This document shows, piece after piece, positions 28,256 through 34,983 of a stretch of 46,424 bases of DNA; positions within the stretch are counted from its first letter, which is position 1, and each line of letters begins with the position of its first letter. A program made the translations under genes and the position numbers. This DNA is from Flavobacteriales bacterium (GTDB lineage: Bacteria; Bacteroidota; Bacteroidia; Flavobacteriales_C; GCA-002722245): the NCBI GenBank assembly GCA_002722245.1, contig PBLA01000005.1, forward strand, positions 38,833-85,256. The letters are read 5' to 3'. The notes beneath the pieces were generated by a model. The model saw nothing but the letters and a program-made list of their open reading frames with translations. It was not told where the DNA came from and searched no databases.

Positions 28256-28389
28256 AATCCAAACTATTACTTTAATTATTTCTTGAAAATTAAGCAATTT
28301 TACGCACACCTTGTAACTTTTAAAGAAATTAATTGTTTTAAAACCAAAACTTAGAGAAATTTAGGTTTGAACTCGGGATTAAGTAGGTA

Positions 28390-28875
28390 TTGACAAAAGA
28401 GGATTACAATAGTGCAGTAAAGGATTTAAGTCATCGTTTGTACGGCTTTGTTTTCAAGTTAACAAAGGATGAAGAAGATGCTAATGATTTAGTCCAAGAT
28501 GCCTTTATGAAATTGTGGGCAAACCGAAAGAAAGTTGAGTTAAAGAAAGCGAAATCTTGGTTGTTTACTACGGCTTATAATGCCTTTATAAATTTTATAA
28601 AAAAAAGTAATAGACAAACAAGAATGGATGAAGGAATGGATATTTCCGTAAATGCTAAAAATCGTTTTGAACTGAAAGAGATCATCGATATGGCTATGGA
28701 AAAGCTTCCAGAACTTCAAAAGTCTATTTTACTGTTGCGTGACCTGGAGGGCTACAATTACAAAGAAATAGGAGAAATGTTGAACCTCAATGAATCCCAA
28801 GTAAAGGTGTATTTATTTAGAGCTAGAAAAAAAATTAAAGATCAAATTAAAGACCTAAGCATATTAAAAATATGA
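28390..28875 (+). CDS. ECF-type RNA polymerase sigma factor
   Basis: A 161-residue extracytoplasmic-function sigma factor with only regions 2 and 4. Region 2 is LYGFVFKLTKDEEDANDLVQ with DAFMKLW; region 4 is the C-terminal helix-turn-helix PELQKSILLLRDLEGYNYKE, then LNLNESQVKVYLFRARKKI. The start is TTG: an in-frame stop lies at 28384-28386, and no internal ATG retains region 2. Its TGA overlaps the ATG of the anti-sigma gene (ATGA, 28872-28875), so the two are translated together. Its regulon is unknown; the T9SS-type genes downstream are candidates. Confidence 0.92.
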   Translation: MTKEDYNSAVKDLSHRLYGFVFKLTKDEEDANDLVQDAFMKLWANRKKVELKKAKSWLFTTAYNAFINFIKKSNRQTRMDEGMDISVNAKNRFELKEIIDMAMEKLPELQKSILLLRDLEGYNYKEIGEMLNLNESQVKVYLFRARKKIKDQIKDLSILKI

Positions 28876-30587
28876 TTGGAAAAGAAAATATAGAACAAAA
28901 GATTTTTGAATATTTCGAAGGAGATCTTTCAATAGCTGAATCGAAAGAGCTGGAAGTGTTCATTAAAAATAATCCAGAATATCAGGTGGATTTTGATGCT
29001 TGGCAGCAAAGCACACTGCCGAACGAGAATTTGCAGTATAAATATAGTGACGATTTACTGGTAAATGAAAAGACATCGCCCAAAGGTTGGGTGAAATGGG
29101 TTTCAGGTGGTGCATTCTTACTTGTTGTAGCTTTTGCTTCTGCAGGTTTACTCATGAAGTTCGACAGTGTAGACAATCGCTTAGCTTCGGCTCATGAAAG
29201 CTCTATAGTAGAATCTGATAACAGGCACCTTACATCGCGTAAAACAGGAAAGACTTTACATGATAATAGTGAAGTGGTATTCCAAAATAGTAATCAGGAT
29301 ATTCGTGTTGTTGAATCTAATAATTCAAAGGAACTAGATCAATTGACAGAAGATCGTTTTCTTAACAAAAATTATGGTAAACCATATGTAGATTCGAAAG
29401 ATGTGGAGAAGTCTTCATTTGTTAGTGATATTCAAACACCTTCTTCTGCGATCGGTTCAGACTTTCGACGAGAGGATACAAACGAGAAGGCATTTAATGC
29501 AAAAGAAAGAAGGGATAGTAATCTTCTTATTCCTAGTTTTAAAGGAACAAAAGATCAAATAAATCCTCAAAAGATATCAAGTGTTTCTAAAGTTAATGCA
29601 CGAAGAGAGGAAACGTTTTTTTACTCGATAGACATTCCTTTAAAAAAAGCCAAGTTTTCTTATGAAAATCCAAATGAACCTTCTTTTTACCTTACCAATA
29701 GGAAAGATCCTTACTTAAATTATGCACTTGCACATACGTTGGAAGAACAAGGGAGTTTTGCAGGTAATGGAGGTGAAGGGATAAGGGCAGAGCATCTCTA
29801 CAGATCAGAGTGGCCCTCAGTAACAACTGATAATTTCACTTCGCAAATACTTTCATTGGACGGAAGAGTTGGCAATCATGGTATTGGATTAATTGTAAAT
29901 GCAGATAGAATTGGTCATGGGAAATTAAATTCTACTTCATTATCTCTTATTTATTCGCCAAAATTATTGATTCAAGGTATAAGTATTGAACCTTCTTTTA
30001 AGGTTACTGGAAATCAAAAAAGCATAGCGTGGAATCAAATTGATCAAAATGATGTGAAAGATCCAAGAAATGGCGTTTTATATGCGTCGATACCATTTAC
30101 TCCTGAAGAGGTTTTAAAGTCAACAATTACCAATGCAGATTTTGGTGCGGGTATTTTGGTTAATGCGAAGAAATTTTTTGTTGGTGCACAAGTAGATCAT
30201 ATAGTTTCGCCCTCGTATTCTAAAGAATACTTTGATCGTGACATTACTATTCCTGCAAAAATTTCGGCTATGTTAGGAACAGATATTTTAAGTAATAAGG
30301 ATGGTCAATTTATGTTTAGCCCATCATTAAACTTTGTGCAGTTTGGTAATTACATGGCCTTATGGTCAAATGCACAAATTTCTTATCAAGGATTTTTCTT
30401 TGCGGGAGGTCTTGCTACAAATGAAGAATTTATGGCGAGCCTTGGTTATGGTAATGGTAAAGTTCGTTTGGTTTACGGTCTTGGATTTACAAAACCAAGT
30501 GAGTTTTCAGGATTAGTTGTGAATAACAAATATTACGAATCGCATCAGTTTAGTTTAAGGGTTCATCTTCAGCCTAAAAAAAGGTAA
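28872..30587 (+). CDS. Anti-sigma factor fused to a PorP/SprF-like outer-membrane barrel
   Basis: A 571-residue protein with four parts. Residues 1-70 are an acidic cytoplasmic anti-sigma-like domain (KIFEYFEGDLSIAESKELE) with no zinc motif. One membrane helix follows (about 76-96, WVSGGAFLLVVAFASAGLL). Residues about 97-280 are a polar, low-complexity linker. Residues about 280-571 resemble PorP/SprF (YLNYALAHT, LYRSEWPSV, GIGLIVNADRIGHG), collinear with the PorP encoded next door. There is no N-terminal signal peptide; the helix would act as signal anchor. It would thus span both membranes, like the dual-membrane-spanning anti-sigma factors (Dma) reported in Bacteroides as I recall. It overlaps the sigma gene by 4 bp. 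Confidence 0.82.
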   Translation: MIGKENIEQKIFEYFEGDLSIAESKELEVFIKNNPEYQVDFDAWQQSTLPNENLQYKYSDDLLVNEKTSPKGWVKWVSGGAFLLVVAFASAGLLMKFDSVDNRLASAHESSIVESDNRHLTSRKTGKTLHDNSEVVFQNSNQDIRVVESNNSKELDQLTEDRFLNKNYGKPYVDSKDVEKSSFVSDIQTPSSAIGSDFRREDTNEKAFNAKERRDSNLLIPSFKGTKDQINPQKISSVSKVNARREETFFYSIDIPLKKAKFSYENPNEPSFYLTNRKDPYLNYALAHTLEEQGSFAGNGGEGIRAEHLYRSEWPSVTTDNFTSQILSLDGRVGNHGIGLIVNADRIGHGKLNSTSLSLIYSPKLLIQGISIEPSFKVTGNQKSIAWNQIDQNDVKDPRNGVLYASIPFTPEEVLKSTITNADFGAGILVNAKKFFVGAQVDHIVSPSYSKEYFDRDITIPAKISAMLGTDILSNKDGQFMFSPSLNFVQFGNYMALWSNAQISYQGFFFAGGLATNEEFMASLGYGNGKVRLVYGLGFTKPSEFSGLVVNNKYYESHQFSLRVHLQPKKR

Positions 30588-30604
30588 TTGACATTTTTTA
30601 TTTT

Positions 30605-30624
30605 CGCGATAACGTTTAATCGCG
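30605..30624. promoter_or_regulatory. Hairpin between the anti-sigma and porP genes
   Basis: CGCGAT (30605-30610) pairs perfectly with ATCGCG (30619-30624) across an 8-nt loop. It has no T-run, so it is not a simple terminator. It lies 40 bp before the porP ATG and could be an operator, processing site or leader structure. Confidence 0.45.
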
Positions 30625-30663
30625 GAGCAGGCACAACGCTGTTTAATCTTAATTTATTTAATT

Positions 30664-31626
30664 ATGAAAAGCAAGTTGTATGTCTTTTTGGTATTTATCG
30701 GTATTTATTTTGTTTCAAACGCACAGGATAATCACTATTCTCAGTTTTATGCAAACAAATTGTATTTAAACCCTGCTTTTGCAGGCACAGATGTTTGTCC
30801 AAGAGTAATTTTAGCGTTTAGAGATCAATGGCCAGGATTAGCAGGAGAGTACGTAAGTTATTCTGCTTCCTATGACCAATCTCTAAATAATATGGGGGTA
30901 GGACTCATTTTTAATGCAGATGATGCAGGAAAGGGGGTTTTAAAAACCAATAATATTGGAGTTATAATGAGTCCTAAAGTTCAATTAGATCAAAACTGGA
31001 CACTATCTTTTGCCATTGAAGCAGGTGTGATTCAAAAAAGGCTGGATCATTCTTCCTTGGTTTTTCCTGATCAAATTGATCCAATATTGGGGCAAGTTTC
31101 AAACATTCAGGAAATTAATGAAAACAAAAGTATTTTAAGATCTGATTTGCAATCAGGGATAATGCTTTATGCTAAACATATGCACATGGGGTATTCTGTA
31201 CATCACGTATTAATGCCGAATATATCTCTAATTGATCAGGTAGATTCTCTAAATCGAAGACATACTGCACATGTGGGGTGGAATATACCTTTGTATTCAC
31301 TACCGCATGAACGTAGATTAGGAATAGGCCCAAAATTATCTCCACAAATCATTTTTCAGCAGCAAGGTCCCGCATCTGAGCTGAATATTGGTTTATACTA
31401 CACCAAAAATAGATTAACAACAGGGATTTGGTATAGAAATACTGATGCTTTGGTCTTGCTTGTAGGAGTGCAGACCAAAAAATTTAATTTTGGATTTAGC
31501 TATGATGCAACAATTAGTAAATTATCAACAAATTCAATGGGGGCGTTTGAATTGAGTACAGCGTACAGATTTAATTGCCGTCCTAAAAAGAAAACACCTC
31601 AAAAAATGATTTGTCCTTCATTTTAG
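30664..31626 (+). CDS. PorP/SprF family type IX secretion outer-membrane protein
   Basis: A 320-residue outer-membrane beta-barrel with signal peptide 1-20 (FVSNAQ). Family hallmarks follow at once: DNHYSQFYANKLYLNPAFAG, FRDQWPGL, YSASYDQSLNNMGVGLIFN, DDAGKGVLKTNNIG. By family knowledge SprF-type proteins sit beside genes for type B cargo and help that cargo leave or attach to the surface, as SprF does for SprB. The next gene encodes exactly such a cargo. It follows the anti-sigma/barrel gene by 76 bp and probably belongs to the same unit. Confidence 0.93.
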   Translation: MKSKLYVFLVFIGIYFVSNAQDNHYSQFYANKLYLNPAFAGTDVCPRVILAFRDQWPGLAGEYVSYSASYDQSLNNMGVGLIFNADDAGKGVLKTNNIGVIMSPKVQLDQNWTLSFAIEAGVIQKRLDHSSLVFPDQIDPILGQVSNIQEINENKSILRSDLQSGIMLYAKHMHMGYSVHHVLMPNISLIDQVDSLNRRHTAHVGWNIPLYSLPHERRLGIGPKLSPQIIFQQQGPASELNIGLYYTKNRLTTGIWYRNTDALVLLVGVQTKKFNFGFSYDATISKLSTNSMGAFELSTAYRFNCRPKKKTPQKMICPSF

Positions 31627-31725: not shown

Positions 31726-34700
31726 ATGACAAAGGTCTTGATTTTCTTAATGCTGTCTTTTTCTTTACTTGCACAGCAAGAATACAATCAGTGGAGGTTT
31801 GGTTATGGTGCAGGAATCGATTTCAATAGCGGAAGCCCCATCCCCGTATCAGGGAGTTCTATTTTCTCGCAAGAATCCGCGGCGAGCGTAGCGGATTGCT
31901 TTGGAAATCTTTTATTCTATACTGATGGTGAAACAATATGGTCGAATAATGACGGTGTTATGGAGGGGGGTACAGGTTTAAATGGATTGCCAGGAAGATA
32001 TCCATCCACTCAAGGTTCCTTGATTGTAAAAAGACCTCAGAGTTCCTCTATCTATTATGTGTTTACAGCTTCAGATATATATGGATTAAATTATTCGGTG
32101 GTTAACATGGCTGCCAATAATGGTTTAGGACGTGTCATTCAAAAAAATGTCAAAGTTTCGAGTGGATTAACCCATAAATTAGCTGTTACCTATCACGAAA
32201 ACGAAATCGATATTTGGGTACTCACTCATTATGAAAACTCAAGTAAATATGAAGCATTTTTAGTCACTCAAACAGGTGTTTCTTCCACGTCTGTTGTGAG
32301 TGAAACAGGCCCCAGCCATACTAGTGCTCATGGGGAGATGAAAGTAAACAGACAAGGCACAAAAGTTGCAGCAGTTGTGCAAGATCAGGATTTGGTTACT
32401 TTGGCAGATTTTGATAATGCCACAGGGGAAATATCAAATGCCATTGGTATATTAGATGTTGTTGGTAAACCTCATGGTTGTGAATTTTCTGCCACAGGTA
32501 ACAAAATGTATGTAACGGGTTGGGGAGCTTTTAAAGGTGGTGTTTATCAATTTACAGTGGGTTCCTCTAATTCAAATACTTTAACAATTGGACGTACAAA
32601 TATATCCGGTTCTTTTAAACCTCTTGGATCTCTTCAATTAGCCCCTGATAATAAAATTTATGTTGCACACGATCCAGATTTGGATTTACCGGGGAATCGA
32701 TTTTTGGGGATTATCCACAATCCTGAAAACGATGGGGATTTGGCTTCTTTTCAAAGGGAGGGATTAAATCTTGGTACTGGTTTTAGCTCATGGCAATTGC
32801 CAAATGTAACGTTAACCAGTAATGAAATTTATGAGGACAAAAGTATTTTGTCTTCAAATTATTGTGTAAATGAGGAAACTGCTTTTTCACTGTCCAATAC
32901 CTCTGGAGTTGTCGATGTTTTATGGGATTTTGATGACCCTTCCTCTGGCGTTGATAATTATTCTAATAATCAAGAGGCGTTTCATCAATACAGCACGCCT
33001 GGCACCTATACTGTTAAAGTCACTGTAACAACTACCTGTGAGGTAAAAGATTATTTTGAAACAATTGTAATTAATGATGGTCCAGAATCAAATCTAGGGC
33101 TTCAAAATATTTGTGCTAATACAGATTATTTAATTGGTGGAGAAACTGAATTCGGAGTGACTTATTCTTGGATGCCCGACGTTGGATTAAACAATAACAC
33201 CTTAGCAAATCCTAGGTTTAACTCCTCAGGTTTAACGCAAGATACGTTTAATATTATTTATACCGCTACGACATTAGGTGGTTGTGTTACTGTTGATACG
33301 CTTTCTCTTTATGTTTTGCCCCAAGAAGGTGCTGTTGAAGATCAAACGTTGTGTCCAGGGTTTGGTGTTACCTTGGGTGTAGACTCTGGTGTTGTAAATG
33401 CACTATGGGATGGTGTTAATATTTCGGACAATCAAAGTTTATCGCCATTTGTTTCACCTACAGTAACTTCAGTTTATACAGCGAGCTTAACCGATACAAA
33501 TGGTTGTTTGAGTTTCGATACTGTCTTAGTGTTTGTATCTCCAATTGTTCCTCTTGATGCAGGAGAATCATCTTCAATTTGTTACGGAGATTCAATTGTG
33601 ATAGGGAATAATATTTCTCCAGACAGTACACTTTTTCAGTGGAGTCCTGAATTGAATGTAGAGTTTGCTTCAGAGGGTGAAACAAATGCATTCCCAGAGG
33701 TTTCTTCATGGTTTTATTTAACCGCTACGAATGATACTTGTTCATCAACAGATTCAGTGTTTATTCCTGTTCATGACCTCCCAGAGGTTAGGCTAAATCC
33801 GAAAGATTCGGTTTTGTGTCAAAAAGAGGAAATTGAAATTAAGGCAGGCGGAGCGTTAATTTATTCATGGGAGTCAACAGCAGAAGTGACGGAAAATACT
33901 GGATTCATATCAGCAATTGCTGATTCGTCTTTTATTGTGATTGTTGAAGGAATAGATTCGAATAATTGCGTGAGTGTGGATACCTCTTCAATTGGTGTTC
34001 TACCCCTTCCGCAGCCCGTTCTTACCAATGATACTGCTGTGTGTGAGGATCAGCCAATTACTTTGCGTATCAGCGGGGGAGTTTCATATCGTTGGTTGAA
34101 TGGAAGTATTGCAGGACTAACAGATAGTGTAATAACTTTTGTTTCTTTAGATGAAAATCAAACGTTCTTTGTTGAAGTTACTGGTGAAAATGGTTGTAAC
34201 ACCTTAGATACAGTTGTTGTGATGGTTGATTCTTTACCTAAAATAATTATGATGAGCGATACCTTGATTTGTGAAGGAGGGAAAGCCTTTTTGTGGGCTA
34301 GTGGTGCAGAGGATTATAGTTGGTCACCTTCGAATTATTTAAATGAAACTACTGGTGATTATCTTGTGGCAGTTCCCGAGGATTCGATTACCTATAAGGT
34401 TGTAGGAACTGATGGGAATGGATGTATAGATTCTGCTGAGGCGTCAATTCAGCTAAACATAAATCCAACTGTAGGGTTTACATACGATTATACATCTACA
34501 TGTGCTGGGTTTGAAGTGCAATTTTCTGATAGTAGTTTAAATGCCGAAAGTTACAACTGGCAATTTGGTGATGGGAACACTTCTACAGAGCAGAGTCCAT
34601 TTTATGTGTATAAATTTGGAAGTAATTTGATTACAAGCTTAATTGTAGGAAATAATGACCTTTGCTTTGATACACTATCGGTTCCATTTTACTGGCAAAA

Positions 34701-34983
34701 AATTTCAGAATTCATTGACGTATTTGCTCCAAATATTATAACACCGAATAACGATGCTTTAAATGATTGTTTTGAAATACGTGTTCCTGCTGAGTTTGAA
34801 AATTGCACCCATTATTCTATTTTTAATCGATGGGGAATGAAGGTTTTTGACTCAGATCTTTTTGATGGTCAGTTTTGTGGTGTAAGTGGATATAATAATC
34901 AAGCAGTTTCAGAGGGTACCTATTATTATGTAATGGAAGTCGGCGACTACATTTTGAATGGGTTTATTCAAGTTATTCGATAG
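31726..34983 (+). CDS. Large T9SS cargo with PKD/Ig-like modules and type B sorting domain
   Basis: A 1085-residue surface protein. Signal peptide 1-16 (LLAQ). Residues about 18-365 resemble the propeller-like N-terminal region common in PorP-linked cargo (WRFGYGAGIDFNSG, LFYTDGETIW, GSLQLAPDNKIYVA). A PKD domain (VLWDFDDPSSGV, TPGTYTVKVTV) is near 385-455. Several Cys-containing Ig-like modules follow (DTAVCEDQPITLRISGG, DTLICEGGKAFLWASGA). A second PKD domain has YNWQFGDGNTSTEQSP. Residues about 998-1085 are the type B sorting domain (FAPNIITPNNDALNDCFEI, FNRWGMKVFDS, GTYYYVMEV). It follows porP by 99 bp and is its likely partner. Confidence 0.9.
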   Translation: MTKVLIFLMLSFSLLAQQEYNQWRFGYGAGIDFNSGSPIPVSGSSIFSQESAASVADCFGNLLFYTDGETIWSNNDGVMEGGTGLNGLPGRYPSTQGSLIVKRPQSSSIYYVFTASDIYGLNYSVVNMAANNGLGRVIQKNVKVSSGLTHKLAVTYHENEIDIWVLTHYENSSKYEAFLVTQTGVSSTSVVSETGPSHTSAHGEMKVNRQGTKVAAVVQDQDLVTLADFDNATGEISNAIGILDVVGKPHGCEFSATGNKMYVTGWGAFKGGVYQFTVGSSNSNTLTIGRTNISGSFKPLGSLQLAPDNKIYVAHDPDLDLPGNRFLGIIHNPENDGDLASFQREGLNLGTGFSSWQLPNVTLTSNEIYEDKSILSSNYCVNEETAFSLSNTSGVVDVLWDFDDPSSGVDNYSNNQEAFHQYSTPGTYTVKVTVTTTCEVKDYFETIVINDGPESNLGLQNICANTDYLIGGETEFGVTYSWMPDVGLNNNTLANPRFNSSGLTQDTFNIIYTATTLGGCVTVDTLSLYVLPQEGAVEDQTLCPGFGVTLGVDSGVVNALWDGVNISDNQSLSPFVSPTVTSVYTASLTDTNGCLSFDTVLVFVSPIVPLDAGESSSICYGDSIVIGNNISPDSTLFQWSPELNVEFASEGETNAFPEVSSWFYLTATNDTCSSTDSVFIPVHDLPEVRLNPKDSVLCQKEEIEIKAGGALIYSWESTAEVTENTGFISAIADSSFIVIVEGIDSNNCVSVDTSSIGVLPLPQPVLTNDTAVCEDQPITLRISGGVSYRWLNGSIAGLTDSVITFVSLDENQTFFVEVTGENGCNTLDTVVVMVDSLPKIIMMSDTLICEGGKAFLWASGAEDYSWSPSNYLNETTGDYLVAVPEDSITYKVVGTDGNGCIDSAEASIQLNINPTVGFTYDYTSTCAGFEVQFSDSSLNAESYNWQFGDGNTSTEQSPFYVYKFGSNLITSLIVGNNDLCFDTLSVPFYWQKISEFIDVFAPNIITPNNDALNDCFEIRVPAEFENCTHYSIFNRWGMKVFDSDLFDGQFCGVSGYNNQAVSEGTYYYVMEVGDYILNGFIQVIR

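Follow-up and report, generated by a model that had tools for sequence, protein, structure and literature searches.

The 571-residue protein described here joins a head with a putative anti-sigma function to what profile matches and predicted strands identify as a true PorP/SprF-type barrel of the outer membrane. It forms the middle part of an ancient cassette, which consists of an ECF sigma factor, the fusion with its head, transmembrane (TM) segment, disordered tether and PorP barrel, and a separate PorP protein. In the family of the genome studied, the promoter of this cassette is found again upstream of cargo genes of the type IX secretion system (T9SS). We consider it likely that the transcription of cargo genes is linked by such a PorP-type sensor to T9SS cargo or to the state of secretion, whereby the signal and the direction of the coupling are what we infer.

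The window, i.e. the whole stretch of 46,424 nt that was analysed, comes from a Flavobacteriales bacterium (GCA_002722245.1, contig PBLA01000005.1, positions 38,833-85,256 of the forward strand). In the following, its genome is referred to as G000 and its family as f1, while f19 denotes a second family with an A-type PorP fusion. The positions of the features are collected in the Table.

Table. Features of the cassette in the window, and the region of a second fusion on another contig of the same genome.
Feature	Position	Strand	Remarks
Cassette promoter, TGTAAC-N15-TTGTTTTA	28312..28340	+	49 nt 5' of the sigma start codon
ECF sigma factor, 161 aa, TTG start	28390..28875	+	4-bp overlap with the fusion gene
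Anti-sigma/PorP fusion, 571 aa (FUSA, fusion A)	28872..30587	+	
Three-helix head, residues 1-47, predicted cytoplasmic	28872..29012	+	AlphaFold2; putative anti-sigma function
Helix with transmembrane segment, residues 74-107	29091..29192	+	AlphaFold2 and hydropathy
Disordered tether, predicted periplasmic, residues 108-264	29193..29663	+	pLDDT <50
PorP/SprF-type outer-membrane beta-barrel, residues 273-570	29688..30581	+	PF11751, TIGR03519, predicted strands
Separate PorP/SprF protein, 320 aa	30664..31626	+	PF11751; signal peptide read at the N-terminus
T9SS cargo, 1085 aa, CHU_C/type B C-terminal signal	31726..34983	+	CHU_C 3.2e-18, PKD_4, Ig_7
Fusion B region (G000 contig C22)	L019:6194-9167		

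Regarding the domains, the sigma factor matched Sigma70_r2 (5.8e-15) and Sigma70_r4_2 (9.7e-19) in Pfam, and its score against NF058625 was borderline (130.1 bits, cut-off 130). In the fused protein, PF11751 covered residues 295-563 (E 7.6e-21, 75.3 bits, cut-off 22.3) and the NCBIfam model TIGR03519 gave 91.7 bits at a cut-off of 90.55, so that a significant PorP similarity was found with both profiles. The neighbouring PorP reached 224.6 bits with TIGR03519 and matched PF11751 at residues 18-301 (E 2.5e-58). The first-pass annotation had aligned the two barrels by eye and called them collinear, and this holds up: besides the two profiles, direct BLASTP found 48 of 180 residues identical with the order kept (27%, E 4e-14), a similarity far beyond chance. 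It had also described the fused copy as a PorP barrel that lacks a signal peptide and is joined to an anti-sigma head, a description borne out by the profile matches and the architecture. The N-terminus is made up of the helical head, followed by a single TM segment at residues 77-95 in the hydropathy profile, and 177 polar residues lie between this segment and the barrel match. With a head and a TM segment in place of a signal peptide, the protein contains a PorP domain and is not a free-standing PorP.

To the AlphaFold2 calculation, an alignment of 50 sequences was supplied, from which the G002 protein, containing X, was left out. Helices of the head were placed at residues 4-16, 21-33 and 35-47, with pLDDT values of 88-97 in this block, and the strands of the barrel were found between residues 304 and 566, after the long helix and the disordered region. 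The head is conserved in the alignment of the eight f1 proteins and matched no Pfam family above the cut-off. The tether is little conserved in sequence across the FUSA proteins; its length is 146-183 aa in the eight of f1 and 169-265 aa in 23 proteins of f19. Among the fold matches of the barrel (VIA-align), the best were 8gl6_F (Z 22.8, rmsd 3.0 over 251 residues) and 6h3i_F (Z 22.4, rmsd 2.8 over 247 residues), tied with FadL entries. Both are chains of T9SS translocon structures, and we take chain F to be PorV. As a FadL-like barrel is common to many outer-membrane channels, the fold alone is not proof of function. Sequence searches of the PDB with PorP and the fused family as queries gave no match, and neither did a plasmid search with the fused protein.

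A search for the head in 295 genomes of the class found it in 123. Within f1, eight of the ten genomes carry FUSA, and the two that lack it are 74 and 77% complete. PorP fusions with the A-type head outside f1 were seen, among the loci opened, in f19 only. There, about half of 100 genomes (49 by our own count) encode the head within an ORF of at least 500 aa, and the PorP barrel is visible in 28 of the 30 loci returned, the remaining two ending at an edge. At least one f19 genome, G298, consists of a single contig and thus probably comes from a cultured organism. The 571-aa gene could in principle be an artefact, in which an assembly or sequencing error has merged two genes into one reading frame, and split forms do exist (L132 and L133 in G006 and G008, L031 in G026). 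However, orthologues that are full-length and free of stops occur in the eight f1 genomes and in the same 28 f19 loci, the other two being truncated at the edge, and the artefact was rejected as next to impossible.

The order of the genes is likewise stable. The sigma gene is followed by the fusion in 8/8 f1 loci and lies upstream of it in 23/23 f19 loci opened; a separate PorP follows in 20 of these 23, and the other three end near a contig or locus edge. In f1, an intact PorP comes after the fusion in six of eight genomes. In G007 it is a decayed remnant (L055:1854-2371) and in G009 it is frameshifted (L057:6412-7376), while the fusion is intact in both, so the pair is not obligatory. A large cargo-like gene stands after the cassette in four of the eight f1 genomes, where the CHU_C assignment was Pfam-tested in G000 and G008, listed in G004 and judged by length and end in G002.

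As for the origin of the fused barrel, the first-pass annotation had proposed that the adjacent porP was duplicated in tandem and one copy then fused to an anti-sigma gene. The genes are indeed adjacent, and both barrels are PorP-like and collinear. However, the window genome has 11 PorP loci, and the nearest relative of the fused barrel is the one on contig C15 (31% over residues 277-472, E 5.7e-19), with the adjacent PorP scoring weaker in the same comparison (28%, E 7.5e-12). In a tree of 58 barrels, the 22 fused barrels of f1 and f19 came out as one clade (support 100/100), which unites the two families. Placing the fused barrels and adjacent PorPs of f1 in one clade was rejected by the AU test (p 4.45e-13, dlnL 56), and with the f19 sequences absent the same clade gave p 0.097. 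When all fused and all adjacent PorPs of both families were united, p was 0.258. Thus the duplication fails inside f1, and a very old version, before the split of the families, is tenable; as an account of the present pair, we hold a local duplication to be improbable. One fused clade together with the AU results indicates a single old fusion or a single transfer of the fusion from one family to the other, without any local duplication. Altogether, the trees support that the fusion is ancient and was not derived from its present neighbour within the window's family.

In detail, 12 tree rows were taken from 22 loci outside the family (L029-L050), among which L035 yielded no PorP ORF. The tree without f19 omitted every fusion B row and six rows with long branches. 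For the first tree with f19, five f19 genomes and four outside rows were removed by thinning, and fusion B and five long rows were omitted; the 58-barrel tree is this tree minus 27 rows. Rates of change differed by family: in f19, all 136/136 pairs showed faster divergence of the fused barrel than of the PorP next to it (median log-identity ratio 2.61), and in f1 the divergence of the two was equal.

A second fusion, termed B, lies on contig C22 of the window genome and is composed of a sigma gene, a 584-aa anti-sigma/PorP fusion (PF11751, 5.8e-12) and a 218-aa CHU_C gene. The same three-gene order was seen in 8/8 f1 loci opened, with the small CTD-type gene Pfam-tested for CHU_C in two of them; in G008 the fusion is broken by an N run, for which it was left out of alignment A3. 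Its head consists of short helical repeats with a W motif, and its sigma genes (L019, L058-L064) share by eye an upstream box, GCAACC...CGTC, which is unlike the fusion A promoter. The fusion B barrel clusters (99/97) with PorPs of other families that have comparable small CTD genes downstream. In the AU test, a common origin of the two fusions was weakly rejected (p 0.0398), and fusion B is probably independent of fusion A. Additionally, in family f23 the A-type head is found on a PF13568 barrel (L134:6048-7577 and L135:92-1825). As read from these domain assignments, the barrel on the A-type head is exchangeable between PorP and PF13568.

Upstream of 30 of the 31 sigma genes of f1 and f19, a core TGTAAC-N15/16-TTGTTYTA was detected, with a spacer of 15 in 7 loci and 16 in 23. 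A PWM scan of the window returned the cassette promoter as the sole strong match (28.4 bits; next 13.1). In 21 genomes that have the cassette, there were 104 pattern sites versus 30 for the backward-pattern control, and in f1 all 12 backward sites were within ORFs. No enrichment was seen in 21 f19 genomes where the search for the head had no match (24 pattern sites versus 30 backward). A search of the window genome with two mismatches was too loose, with 125 sites versus 156 in the control, and was discarded. Boxes with AAC at -35 are common among ECF sigma factors, and the box might belong to another sigma factor, with the cassette and the cargo genes both under its control. This we find unlikely, as the box is conserved 5' of the cassette sigma in two families, the enrichment is absent from the f19 genomes without the head, and the fusion B sigma genes show, by eye, a different box.

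The eight f1 genomes contain 49 sites, namely 8 at sigma genes and 41 others. Among these 41, 20 are located no more than 300 nt 5' of an ORF ending in a CTD-profile match, 10 lie before ORFs that are cut off by the contig end and are mostly cargo-like (the contig-end ORF in G000 C1 is homologous to listed cargos), and 11 have no CTD ORF after them; three of the 41 fall inside an ORF according to the ORF calling. The proportion of CTD-confirmed to all non-sigma sites varied by genome (G000 0/3, G002 1/1, G004 0/3, G005 3/6, G006 7/7, G007 0/5, G008 5/10, G009 4/6). With 30-72 CHU_C matches per f1 genome, about 1.5% of genes at one gene per kb, the binomial tail for 20/41 is ~1e-25, and 3e-14 at four times the base rate; sites of related genomes are non-independent, and these values serve as a guide only. 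The window's own genus has few perfect sites. Of the three in G000, one lies before an open cargo-like ORF and another before a split gene, the second piece of which carries a T9SS type A tail (TIGR04183). Four sites with one mismatch were found in the window genome; two of these are followed, after 33 and 49 nt, by ORFs for secreted proteins with CHU_C at the end, judged by position. The earlier reading had imagined a sensor tuned to the cargo of the neighbouring PorP; the promoter sites suggest a link with many T9SS cargo genes and not with that cargo alone.

In the case of f19, the picture is different. Eight sites were scanned for CTDs, and one CTD gene (187 aa) was found. One f19 site precedes a weak PorP (PF11751, 7.9e-9), two precede ECF sigma factors, and those examined stand mostly before lipoproteins and secreted proteins of unknown kind. 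As f19 targets differ from those of f1, either the regulon has changed from one family to the other, or the signal covers more than cargo.

Signalling from an outer-membrane barrel through an anti-sigma factor to an ECF sigma factor is familiar from TonB-dependent transducers and FecR. There, two proteins and a TonB-dependent barrel are used, whereas the window protein is a single chain that carries a PorP barrel. Closer in design are the Dma anti-sigma factors, which are composed of an anti-sigma domain, a TM helix, a long disordered tether and a C-terminal barrel, lie next to the gene of the ECF21-class sigma factor that they repress and are described as restricted to Bacteroidota (PMC13088901). 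The parts of the window fusion come in the same order, as far as the predicted model and hydropathy tell, and the adjacent ECF sigma gene is shared as well (8/8 f1 and 23/23 f19 loci). Unlike Dma, the window fusion has a barrel of the T9SS kind, PorP/SprF, a separate PorP next to it, and promoter sites at T9SS cargo genes. The terms PorP, type IX and T9SS are absent from the main text of the 2026 Dma paper (PMC13088901). A literature search, with bioRxiv and most subscription papers outside its scope, found no paper on a PorP-anti-sigma fusion.

PorP-like proteins (PorP, SprF) have been described to bind type B CTD proteins (PMC9143113). With this family the fusion shares a barrel above the curated cut-offs of PF11751 and TIGR03519, and the window copy lies near a type B CTD gene; unlike PorP/SprF, it has no signal peptide, carries a predicted inner-membrane anchor and cytoplasmic head, and falls in its own clade. 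A functional precedent comes from P. gingivalis, where PorA, a CTD protein of the cell surface, has its place upstream of SigP in the PorXY-SigP system; the authors propose a feedback and state that the link from surface PorA to the inner-membrane kinase is missing (PMC7712824). A CTD protein and an ECF sigma factor are thus tied to T9SS gene expression in that organism, and the cassette likewise has a T9SS-linked ECF sigma factor. P. gingivalis uses a two-component system, whereas the window fusion is one protein that could bridge surface and inner membrane; moreover, the targets found for the window type are cargo genes rather than T9SS parts as in PorXY-SigP.

A possible sequence of events can be drawn from this. 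The head would bind the ECF sigma factor and keep it at the inner membrane, and the disordered tether would span the periplasm from head to barrel. Type B CTD cargo, or the T9SS itself, would then engage the barrel, which may alter the pull on the tether or its exposure, such that the sigma factor is freed. Freed sigma would transcribe its own operon and, in f1, a set of T9SS cargo genes, and would in this manner set the expression of both the cargo genes and its own sensor; the sign of this feedback is again what we infer. That the barrel senses cargo or secretion at all appears to us close to an even bet. The full version, a single-protein loop from secretion to transcription in which the PorP barrel reports arrival or backlog of type B cargo to the ECF sigma factor, and which evolved at least twice (A and B) with different heads and PorP lineages, is put forward tentatively, at slightly less than even chances. 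Counting against a secretion sensor are the three sites of G004, none of them at a CTD gene, the mostly non-CTD targets in f19, and the presence of a cargo gene by the cassette in just 4/8 f1 genomes.

Instead, the barrel may have been co-opted as a surface receptor for a signal other than cargo (glycan, stress or lipid), comparable to the glycan proposal for Dma2. The PF13568 barrel on the A-type head in f23 and the lipoproteins and uncharacterized secreted proteins behind most f19 sites would both fit such a receptor, but f1 sites precede T9SS cargo genes, and fusion B also has a small CTD-type next gene in 8/8 loci. We regard a non-cargo signal as rather unlikely, yet clearly less so than the other alternatives discussed above. 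The question at stake is how a cell senses from inside whether its T9SS is busy or idle. Because a single protein would span the gap and the promoter of its sigma factor can be read at cargo genes, the idea of a secretion sensor is directly testable. Furthermore, the exchangeable barrel of a Dma-like sensor (PorP, PF13568) may allow the class of signal to be predicted from the barrel.

Several further loci were observed in the course of the analysis. Unfused runs of sigma, anti-sigma and PorP genes (L132:5340-7411, L133:5837-7804, L031:22-2391) are possibly pre-fusion or split states. In f19, the promoter box precedes other ECF sigma genes (L343:723-1289, L345:719-1327), which suggests a sigma cascade. 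A lipoprotein-like family of ~130 aa recurs after the f19 box (L339, L342, L257, L259, L265), with a tandem pair in L259. Across the class, in L029-L050, a PorP ending in ...CPSF adjoins a conserved gene of the lipoprotein-like kind and, in most cases, a large and divergent gene for a secreted protein, an arrangement which presumably resembles the porU/gldJ locus.
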